20,937 nucleotides of DNA from a virus. The position numbers and the translations under genes are program-made. The stretch spans positions 1 through 20,937 of IMG/VR virus record IMGVR_UViG_3300028786_000021. One strand, written 5' to 3'. The notes under the pieces are model-generated. The model saw only the letters and a list, made by a program, of their open reading frames with translations. It was not told the DNA's origin and did not search any database. The stretch's first letter is position 1. Each line of letters begins with the position of its first letter. This document shows positions 1,331 through 4,975 of this stretch, one piece after another.

Positions 1331-1723
1331 GTGAGTCAGTGGCGCACCGAGCGCGACCCGTGGTTCGGGTGCGAGCTCTGGCGCGGCGCGGTGAACTCGA
1401 ACGGCTACCCGACCTACTGGGACAAGGGGCGGCCGCGGCAGGCGTACTACGTGGCGCTCGAGCGCGCCGGCGTGGTCATCCCGCCCGACCGCGAGCCGGA
1501 CCACCTCTGCCGCCGGCGCGCGTGCGTAGCGGTGGCGCACTTCGAGCTGGTGACGCGCGCGGAGAACCAGCTCCGCAAGGCGTGGAGCTACCGCTCCCAG
1601 CTCACCACGTGCCCGAAGGGGCACGACCTCTTCATCCACGGCCGGCGCACCCCGGAGGCCGGCGTGGTCTGCAGGATCTGCTCGGGCGTCTGGTCACCGA
1701 CCAGGGCGCCCGAGCTCGCGTGA
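1331..1723 (+). CDS. HNH endonuclease-like protein with zinc-ribbon tail and altered motif
   Basis: The 130-aa protein has the small phage HNH layout. An N-terminal region (WFGCELWRG, NGYP) resembles the start of many free-standing phage HNH proteins. The core follows with D57-H58, C60, C65 and H70 (DHLCRRRACVAVAH), then the helix LVTRAENQLR, and a zinc-ribbon-like C-terminus with C94, H98, C114 and C117. In the family the core usually reads C-V-N-P-x-H; here Asn is A67 and Pro is V68, so the middle residue of H-N-H is lost. It may cut weakly or differently, or serve as a DNA-binding relic. It starts with GTG three bases after the GroES-like stop. Such genes are often mobile passengers in phage genomes, and some assist terminase cutting. 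Family confident, activity uncertain. Confidence 0.75.
   Translation: MSQWRTERDPWFGCELWRGAVNSNGYPTYWDKGRPRQAYYVALERAGVVIPPDREPDHLCRRRACVAVAHFELVTRAENQLRKAWSYRSQLTTCPKGHDLFIHGRRTPEAGVVCRICSGVWSPTRAPELA
1681..1714 (+). other. Strong nested hairpin at the 3' end of the HNH gene
   Basis: CTCGGGCG (1681-1688) pairs perfectly with CGCCCGAG (1707-1714). Inside it CTGGTC (1690-1695) pairs with GACCAG (1699-1704) around a 3-base loop, for 14 base pairs with only a small 1x2 internal loop. It lies within the last codons of the HNH gene and ends 15 bases before the tRNA-like element. No T-run follows, so it is not a standard intrinsic terminator. It could be an RNase processing signal, an mRNA end stabiliser or a recombination site. 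Confidence 0.6.
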
Positions 1724-1729
1724 AGTTCC

Positions 1730-1834
1730 GCCCATGTGGTGCAAAGCGGTCCTCGACAAAGGACACCGGCAAACACAGCGCCTGGCCAGCGCCGCTCCTA
1801 CGGGAGCTTCCAGGTTCGAATCCTGGCTTGGGCA
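1730..1834 (+). tRNA. tRNA-like element, divergent or degenerate
   Basis: The 3' half is convincing: a perfect T-arm, CCAGG (1810-1814), loop TTCGAAT, CCTGG (1822-1826). Before it is a long variable arm, GCTCC (1794-1798) with GGAGC (1803-1807). GCCCATG (1730-1736) pairs 6 of 7 with CTTGGGC (1827-1833), with A1834 as discriminator; CCA is not encoded. GTG (1739-1741) can pair with CAC (1764-1766) as a D-stem, but the loop is 22 bases and holds an extra GTCCT/AGGAC hairpin. The best anticodon arm is AGCGC-CTGGCCA-GCGCC (1777-1793, one mismatch, loop reading GGC), which does not fit a long variable arm. At 105 bases it is too long for a normal tRNA. It may be degenerate, intron- or insertion-bearing, or an att-type copy of a host tRNA 3' end. 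Confidence 0.4.
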
Positions 1835-1867
1835 CGACGAACCCCAACTTCAGACGGAGAAAACCCC

Positions 1868-2089
1868 ATGGATCAGAGCAACGCCGGTCACGTCGCAGCC
1901 TCACCCGCGCCCGAGCACATCATGCAGTTCTTCGCGCACGCCCACCTGAAGCCCGAGCTGGCCGCGGTGTCGAAGCCGTTCGCCGACCTCGCCGACCAGG
2001 TCCTGCCGCGCAACCCGGAGCGTACGGTCGCGCTCCGCAAGCTGCTCGAGGCGAAGGACGCCGCGGTCCGCGCCCTCGTCGCGAAGTAG
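1868..2089 (+). CDS. Small Acb2/Tad1-like protein, candidate anti-CBASS/Thoeris nucleotide sponge
   Basis: The 73-aa product is mostly helical after a disordered 15-residue start. Its pattern runs FFAHAHLKPEL (21-31), VSKPFADLADQVLPRNPE (34-51), then TVALRKLLEAKDAAVRA (53-69). This order of an aromatic/His-x-x-Lys stretch, an LA-x-x-(V/I)-x-x-x-x-P segment and an AL-x-KL-x-EA helix matches what I recall of the Acb2/Tad1 family. Those phage proteins assemble into oligomers and sequester the signalling nucleotides of CBASS and Thoeris. The assignment rests on pattern memory, not a search. ATG 1868 is preferred because GGAG lies eight bases upstream; a longer in-frame reading back to 1736 would run through the tRNA-like element. 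The candidate small terminase gene starts two bases after the stop. It is probably made with the late genes, or from an unseen upstream promoter. Confidence 0.6.
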   Translation: MDQSNAGHVAASPAPEHIMQFFAHAHLKPELAAVSKPFADLADQVLPRNPERTVALRKLLEAKDAAVRALVAK

Positions 2090-3304: not shown

Positions 3305-4975
3305 GTGGCGCGGAACGACGCGCTCCTGCTCGACGGTCTGCTGAAGAAGCTCGACCGCGAGGCGAGGTCGTTCGACACCGAGCACTACAAGCGCAAGGCG
3401 CAGACGATCCTCGACCAGCTGCTGCCGATGCAGCGGACGATGGCGGAGGACTGGCACAAGCGCCTGTGCCTCCTCACGCCGGGCAAGAACGGAAAGACCT
3501 TCACCGTGCGCGCGCGCCTCCTGCGCGGCGCGCTGCTGAAGAAGAACTTCTACGGGCTCTACATCGGCCTCAGCCGCCTCAAGGGCAAGGAGGACATGTG
3601 GGACGGGCCCAGCGGCCTGCGGTCGCTGGTGCAGCTCCTGGGGTTGAAGGTCGGCCAGCTCGGCGAGGCGGGCGTCGACGTCGTCTTCAACAACCAGGAC
3701 CTGATCGCCTACTTCCCGAAGATGGAGTCGCTCATCCGGGTCGGCGGCGCCGACAACATGGAGGCGATCGAGAAGTACCGCGGCGGCCCGGGTTACGACG
3801 AGGTCTGGATCGACGAGGCCAAGTCGCACAGCCCGCACCTGCTCAAGGAACTCATCGACGAGATCCTCGAGCCGCGCATCCTCTGGAAGAACGGCGTCCT
3901 CGGCATCTGCGGGACGCCCGGCTCGATCCTGAAGGGCTACTTCTACGACCTGACCCGCAACGCGTCCGAACTCTCGATCTCGTGCACCGACGAGAACCCC
4001 GAGCCCCTCCGGTGGAACTGTCACCGGTGGTCGCTCGAGCAGAACACGATCCGGCTCGAGGGGCAGACGAGCAGCGCCTGGGAGCGCGCGCTCGAGCTGA
4101 AGCGCGCGAAGGGCTGGACCGACCGGAACACGACGTGGCGGCGGGAGTACCTCGGGCAGTGGTGCGCCGAGCTCACGGCGAACGTCTACAAGTTCCAGCA
4201 GCACGACGAGACCGGGGCGCCCTGGAACATCTGGACGCCGCTCGAGAAGACGCCGGCGAACCCGTTCGGCCTCTTCAGCCAGGTGAAGGTCGGCGAGCAG
4301 TGGCAGTCGATCGCGTGGCACTTCGGCATCGGCATGGACATGGGCGAGAACGACATGTTCGCGCTCGTCGTCTTCGCCTTCTCTGACCAGCTGCCGAGCC
4401 GCCTCTACCAGGTGCACGAGGTGGTGAAGCGCTTCCGGCTGATGGACGTGCCGGGCGAGAAGCCGTTCTCGCGCGTCGACTTCATCGGCGCCGCGCTCAC
4501 GCACGCGATCGCGCTCATCAAGTGCTACGCGGACTACCCGCTCGCGCTGGTCTCGGACATGGCCCACATGGGCGAGACCATCCTGACCGAGGTGCTCATC
4601 AAGTACGGGCACAAGGTCGAGAAGGCGGCGAAGCAGGACAAGGAAGGCTTCATCACGCTGGTCAACGACGACCTGGTCGACGGCCGGATGCTCCTCCTCG
4701 TCGACAGCAAGCTCGCCGAGCAGATGTCGGAGCTGCAGTACGACGAGACCGGCAAGCGCGAGATGCCCGGCCAGGCCAACGACGCTTGTGACTGCACCGT
4801 CTACGTCCGCGGCGCGGTGATCCGGTTCCTCAGCCACAGGCCCGTGGACCCCGTCGACGAGAAGACGCCGAACGAACGGCACGTCGAGGAGCTGCTCCGA
4901 CAGCACGAACGCAAGCCCATCGACACCTTCACCAACTACGGCGACCTGTCGCCGCCCTACGACCCGAGGCAATGA
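3305..4975 (+). CDS. terL: Terminase large subunit (ATPase and nuclease)
   Basis: The motor that pumps DNA through the portal and cuts it at the start and end of packaging. ATPase: a Walker A-like loop TPGKNGKT (58-65), Walker B YDEVWIDEA (164-172) with D170-E171, and a coupling motif GICGTPG (200-206). Nuclease (RNase H fold): acidic candidates D345 in GMDMGEND, D418 in LVSDMAH, and D493/D496 in ANDACDC. The order, spacing and 556-aa length fit a two-domain large terminase. The start is GTG at 3305, two bases after the previous stop. The 3' end overlaps the next gene (ATGA at 4972). The Walker A loop has Thr where Gly or Ala is commonest, which is tolerated in terminases. The C-terminus (HVEELLRQHERKPIDTF) is probably the portal-docking tail. 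Confidence 0.95.
   Translation: MARNDALLLDGLLKKLDREARSFDTEHYKRKAQTILDQLLPMQRTMAEDWHKRLCLLTPGKNGKTFTVRARLLRGALLKKNFYGLYIGLSRLKGKEDMWDGPSGLRSLVQLLGLKVGQLGEAGVDVVFNNQDLIAYFPKMESLIRVGGADNMEAIEKYRGGPGYDEVWIDEAKSHSPHLLKELIDEILEPRILWKNGVLGICGTPGSILKGYFYDLTRNASELSISCTDENPEPLRWNCHRWSLEQNTIRLEGQTSSAWERALELKRAKGWTDRNTTWRREYLGQWCAELTANVYKFQQHDETGAPWNIWTPLEKTPANPFGLFSQVKVGEQWQSIAWHFGIGMDMGENDMFALVVFAFSDQLPSRLYQVHEVVKRFRLMDVPGEKPFSRVDFIGAALTHAIALIKCYADYPLALVSDMAHMGETILTEVLIKYGHKVEKAAKQDKEGFITLVNDDLVDGRMLLLVDSKLAEQMSELQYDETGKREMPGQANDACDCTVYVRGAVIRFLSHRPVDPVDEKTPNERHVEELLRQHERKPIDTFTNYGDLSPPYDPRQ

Follow-up and report, generated by a model that had tools for sequence, protein, structure and literature searches.

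A conserved and widespread phage gene whose product may be a remote relative of the Acb2/Tad1 hairpin proteins

The window analysed here, a stretch of 20,937 nucleotides (positions 1 to 20,937 of the IMG/VR virus record IMGVR_UViG_3300028786_000021), carries at 1868..2089 on the plus strand a reading frame for a protein of 73 amino acids, which a first-pass annotation had proposed as a candidate sponge of the Acb2/Tad1 type, that is, a phage protein that sequesters the nucleotide signals of bacterial immunity. The question raised by this locus is whether the protein belongs with these sponges in descent, in fold and in function. The frame itself is preceded by a Shine-Dalgarno-like GGAG (1856..1859, +), separated by an 8-nt spacer from the ATG start, and its G+C content at the three codon positions (0.76/0.42/0.93) is typical for genes of a window with 69% G+C. 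Its translation, MDQSNAGHVAASPAPEHIMQFFAHAHLKPELAAVSKPFADLADQVLPRNPERTVALRKLLEAKDAAVRALVAK, contains all the segments singled out by the annotation (FFAHAHLKPEL, LADQVLPRNPE and AL-RKLLEAKDAAV). The core peptide RNPERTVALRKLLEAKDAAVRA is unchanged in 66 relatives, and over the 22 codons which encode it the mean base differences at codon positions 1, 2 and 3 are 0.47, 0.0 and 10.1. Because the DNA of these relatives differs almost solely at third positions of RNPERTVALRKLLEAKDAAVRA, the protein is under strong purifying selection, well past chance, and the reading frame is a genuine conserved gene. The proposal of a 73-residue product with the named segments is thereby borne out.

The protein is placed in PHROG 1761/5120 by its profile matches to phrog_1761 (E 2.5e-22, residues 9-72) and phrog_5120 (E 9e-15, residues 12-72), both of which lack a name and are annotated as function unknown. 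Neither Pfam nor NCBIfam holds a model that recognises it, and a search of one literature library for PHROG 1761/1454 or PF24729 (the Acb2/Tad1 hairpin family of Pfam) found nothing. The window protein and the family have in common the pattern QFF-x3-HL ... PRNPERTVALRKLLEAKDAAVRA, and differ between helices 2 and 3, where the window protein lacks three residues that nearly all relatives possess. This deletion lies at the V45-L46 junction (2000..2005, +); in an alignment of 153 sequences all three residues are missing from the window protein alone, while at least one is missing in 7 of the 153. At exactly the same place a subgroup of relatives (L010, L019, L020, L025, L027, L043, L057, L066 and L147) carries an insertion of about 6 to 18 residues.

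Relatives were detected by tblastn in 322 of 50,697 phage records, and a scan of viral contigs confirmed them in at least 577. The best 80 of 198 loci kept from a genome scan come from prophages spread over many phyla, and the groups represented include Alphaproteobacteria, Gammaproteobacteria, Actinobacteria, Myxococcota, Planctomycetes, Cyanobacteria and Chloroflexi, among others; copies also occur on plasmid records. The notion that this gene extends a known family to a GC-rich podovirus thus understates the case, as its family is already found across hundreds of phages of many kinds. One member, in Acinetobacter phage Acba_4 (OQ101249, 18719-18904), is labelled ‘occludin homology domain protein’, a label that apparently stems from a spurious sub-threshold Pfam likeness.

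An AlphaFold2 model of the monomer (pLDDT 87) predicts a short N-terminal helix followed by two long antiparallel helices. The first covers residues 17-22 (HIMQFF; 1916..1933, +), helix 2 covers residues 29-43 (1952..1996, +) and helix 3, with the invariant E51, K58, E61, K63, D64 and R68, residues 50-72 (2015..2083, +). The Acb2 protomer has been described in the same terms, as one short helix and two long antiparallel helices (PMC10419184; PMC12043709), and the layout predicted for the window protein is that of the Acb2 protomer, in agreement with the small helical subunit that the annotation had anticipated. Searches of solved structures were less informative. Foldseek gave no significant match to the model among them, and the chains of Acb2, Vs.4 and Tad1 were absent from the PDB fold lists for the protein, as were Acb2 chains from those for a relative with a fused N-terminal domain, an absence not counted against relatedness; sequence searches of the PDB, with the protein and with a profile of its close relatives, returned nothing or designed helical repeats. 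In a library of predicted viral structures the top ranks were taken by apparent direct relatives, mostly 36-46% identical, and proteins named ‘Acb2/Tad1 hairpin domain-containing’ appeared at ranks 8, 13, 14, 32 and 44, the match at rank 8 with a probability of 0.97 and TM scores of 0.65/0.72.

Helical hairpins are common, and the link was therefore tested by controlled sequence profiles. Genuine PF24729 proteins were gathered through genome and viral scans, with the curated Pfam cut-off of 27 bits as the yardstick. Proteins of the phrog_1454 type (L096, L100 and L102) score 61-73 bits to PF24729, and the one with 69.6 bits (L096) also matches the solved ‘Acb2 homolog 43’ (9ptq; 1.2e-4) and, at about 0.25, chains of Tad1. 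When the profile of the 153-sequence family was aligned by hhalign to 14 such PF24729-type proteins, P was 4.3e-5 with a score of 27.5 over 36 columns, and the same 14 proteins aligned to 68 Acb2 proteins with P 4.3e-5 and a score of 27.8. The family thus stands to the PF24729-type hairpins roughly as these stand to Acb2; aligned straight to the Acb2 proteins, the family profile gives no match (P 0.18). The score of 27.5 was not reached by the permuted and reversed controls: 200 column permutations reached at most 16.9, 200 reversed-block shuffles at most 15.8 and the reversed profile 13.4, whereas 2 of 200 heptad-block shuffles, in which the blocks can remain in order, did reach it. As a control from natural sequences, the divergent members L177, L158 and L183 match phrog_1454 at 3.5e-5 to 5.4e-5, and among 38,880 PHROG profiles it is the top match of all three outside their own PHROGs 1761/5120; in the reciprocal direction L096 matches phrog_1761 weakly (0.002), and the 73-residue protein itself matches phrog_1454 weakly (E 0.0055).

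At the level of single sequences little of this is visible. The 73-residue protein has no PF24729 match, neither by itself nor in a search of the whole record, which gave none for the window; a BLASTP comparison with a PF24729 member produced no alignment; and family members scored directly against PF24729 reach at most 14.8 bits, far under the cut-off. Matches to PF24729 were obtained for 7 of 44 diverse family members (best E 0.0034). Five phages, T4, D3 and three more, gave no match to the family profile, though above-cut-off PF24729 domains are present in three of the five, and the link between the family and PF24729 is accordingly visible solely at the profile-profile level. Two unrelated models were considered and set aside, Occludin_ELL (0.0011 with single members), a eukaryotic coiled-coil model matched far under its 31-bit cut-off, and Dps among relatives (Arch_DPS of NCBIfam, 1.2e-4), judged a helical coincidence. 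Because these models score about as PF24729 does, single-sequence matches mean little.

Such equally strong matches to unrelated helical models are also what would be expected if the protein were a short amphipathic hairpin of a common type, without common descent with Acb2/Tad1, and the shortness of the aligned stretch and the uninformative searches of solved structures fit this possibility as well. It is nevertheless improbable, given that the profile match depends on the order of the columns and was never equalled by the permuted or reversed controls, that three divergent members single out the same outside family with a weak reciprocal match, and that the family and the PF24729-type proteins both carry the spaced pattern L-A ... 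P-x-x-x-E-[KR]-x-x-A-[LV]-x-K-L-x-E-A. The homology to accepted PF24729 members at the profile level, weak but order-dependent, supports a common descent of the hairpin scaffold, well short of formal membership. The search for a profile match suggested in the annotation thus succeeds for the family as a whole, but not for the protein itself, and the Acb2/Tad1-like identity is upheld in part, by the layout and by the profile match to PF24729, though not by a Pfam match, a direct Acb2 match or the signature residues.

These residues separate the family from each of the known systems. Effectively invariant in the 153 sequences are H26, L27, E51, K58, E61, K63, D64 and R68. Acb2 (p26 of PaMx33/PaP2, Vs.4 of T4), an anti-CBASS sponge, resembles the window protein as a small stand-alone phage protein with the same helix layout, encoded by an accessory gene, and differs from it in the missing direct profile match and in its signature residues, which the 73-residue protein lacks: the family conserves neither a GY[RK] close to the N terminus nor, within and after helix 3, T, Q, G, R and P (T54, Q57, G59, R65 and P70 being the most conserved positions of Acb2, as numbered on its profile). 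The PF24729-type proteins have an N-terminal R-F-x-x-H, an R in helix 2 and T, W and N in helix 3, all of which are replaced or not conserved in the family. Neither of these two conserved sets is present in the window protein. Tad1, a sponge acting against Thoeris and CBASS, has a C-terminal two-helix hairpin in common with the window protein, and differs in its beta domain, which the window protein does not have. The scaffold therefore looks related and the likely binding surface does not, and from these unshared residues the protein was not filed as either Acb2 or Tad1. Because the conserved residues differ, the ligand may also differ from that of Acb2.

In some relatives the hairpin follows another domain. 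In the rhizobial relatives L054 (4794-5183), L111 and L116 it is preceded by an N-terminal domain rich in beta-strands, and sequences similar to this domain and free of the hairpin occur in phages of Rhizobium, Sinorhizobium and Paracoccus. The domain is predicted to lie ahead of the hairpin, as in Tad1, in a low-confidence model; Tad1 (7uav) superposes on the hairpin of such a fused relative (Z 4.6, rmsd 2.8, 44 residues) at a level that is background for hairpins. With the N-terminal part modelled at low confidence and the Tad1 match confined to the hairpin, a Tad1-like architecture for this fusion was rejected. In the Erwinia jumbo phage pEa_SNUABM_35 (L301, 3773-4201) the hairpin follows a small N-terminal domain that contains a Walker A-like motif (GPVGVGKS), and relatives of this domain occur in some 50 records of Erwinia and Dickeya phages; no P-loop fusion partner common to the family and Acb2 turned up among the Acb2 loci retrieved.

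The distinct residues bear directly on function. The scaffold may be held in common with Acb2/Tad1 in a protein that is no sponge, its invariant charged face binding a host or phage protein, or RNA or DNA, and so adjusting host metabolism, transcription or another defence. In keeping with this are the family's own set of conserved residues, with acidic as well as basic residues on helix 3, the fusions to unrelated N-terminal domains (the P-loop domain of L301 and the beta domain of L054, L111 and L116), and a sequence conservation extremely high for a protein engaged in an arms race; set against it is the fact that the nearest described relatives at the profile level are sponges. We consider a non-sponge relative of the scaffold quite possible and nearly as likely as a nucleotide sponge, with convergence less so and a structural role unlikely.

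A structural role would rest on the genomic surroundings; the annotation had placed the gene at the edge of a packaging operon. The gene indeed lies just upstream of a putative large terminase gene (3305-4975) and a portal-like gene, and in some other phages its relatives are found between neck genes or adjoining a portal gene, so that a part in virion assembly or packaging, for instance as an accessory to the terminase or the neck, could be imagined. The portal-like gene weakly matches Head-tail_con and the connector profiles of PHROG. No family match was obtained for the putative large terminase, whose label is an assignment from its place ahead of the portal-like gene and from motif-like stretches. 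This putative terminase has no relative in the 50,697 phage records, and a pattern scan of viral contigs yielded one; this scarcity of relatives points to a phage from a barely sampled lineage. For the neighbouring 113-residue reading frame (2092-2433), which had been proposed as the small terminase, no support for that identity was obtained.

A single close relative came to light, L305, whose large terminase is 81% identical and whose DNA is 77% identical over 7.3 kb, and it allows the site to be compared directly. The two loci align at window positions 1331-1724 and again from 2102, and L305 has its own 4304-4782 in between. They have in common an HNH gene (86%), a GNAT-like gene and the downstream genes to the end of the locus, whereas the hairpin gene and a GroES gene are missing from the L305 locus. 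The segment 1725..2101 (+), with a tRNA-like element and the hairpin gene, is replaced in L305 by a second HNH gene, which lies between the first and the gene for the 113-residue product downstream. The HNH endonuclease gene of the window lies at 1331-1723, and the two related HNH genes of L305 stand in tandem at 3910-4776, which suggests that the site is a hotspot for mobile endonucleases. The co-chaperonin gene of the GroES/Cpn10 type (935-1327, Pfam E 2.5e-14) belongs to the same variable stretch of the window.

Elsewhere the neighbours of the family gene change from phage to phage, and include nucleotide-metabolism genes, a putative endolysin, tail and lysis genes between which it lies, and regions of jumbo phages, in addition to the neck and portal settings noted above. 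Its absence from L305 at a syntenic site, together with its varying position between phages, argues for an optional, independently moving cargo gene without a part in packaging or the virion, and makes the packaging explanation very improbable. The view that this is a small accessory insertion site, put forward in the annotation, is well supported by the nearest relative. As to the tRNA-like element said to lie upstream, a cloverleaf can be folded at 1727..1840 (+), with acceptor pairing, a 7-nt anticodon-type loop (CUGGCCA), a long variable arm and a canonical T arm with the T loop TTCGAAT, but ARAGORN and Rfam call no tRNA there, and the fold is no better than those of shuffled sequences (z -1.2). 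It may represent a class II tRNA in decay or what is left of an attachment site.

Taken together, the 73-residue protein is plausibly a remote relative of the Acb2/Tad1 hairpin, with a nucleotide-sponge role as a candidate function. Our preferred explanation, tentative and somewhat short of an even chance, is that of an optional phage gene for a hairpin protein, remotely akin to Acb2/Tad1, which as an oligomer binds an immune signal of nucleotide type. The gene and the Acb2/Tad1 hairpin domain would have a remote ancestor in common, and the protomers would associate via their hairpins into an oligomer, with pockets between protomers lined by the conserved polar residues H26, R52, R57, K58, K63, D64 and R68. 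These pockets would hold the signal and titrate it away, so that the defence effector stays off. The accessory status of the gene, the small size of the protein, the hairpin scaffold and the invariant polar surface together favour an oligomer that binds a small, charged molecule, of which a nucleotide immune signal is the most plausible. An accessory anti-defence gene fits the absence from L305 and the changing neighbours, while conservation this extreme is somewhat out of the ordinary for a protein in an arms race and counts against a classic sponge. The broader claim, that PHROG 1761/5120 as a whole are widespread unrecognised sponges which have kept the hairpin scaffold and acquired a different pocket, for a signal that Acb2/Tad1 do not neutralise, is doubtful.

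The family is a large and highly conserved group of phage genes so far without a name or an assigned function. Should it turn out not to be a sponge, it would serve as a warning that likeness of the hairpin alone does not make one. For comparison, one bioRxiv study (PMC11722364) describes Acb1 and Acb2 as relatively rare and Acb4, with over 1,300 members, as the largest anti-CBASS family known. If its members are sponges, the present family, with its 322 phage records and at least 577 viral contigs, would rank with the most common of all known counter-defence proteins, and the unusual set of invariant residues would suggest a different ligand.
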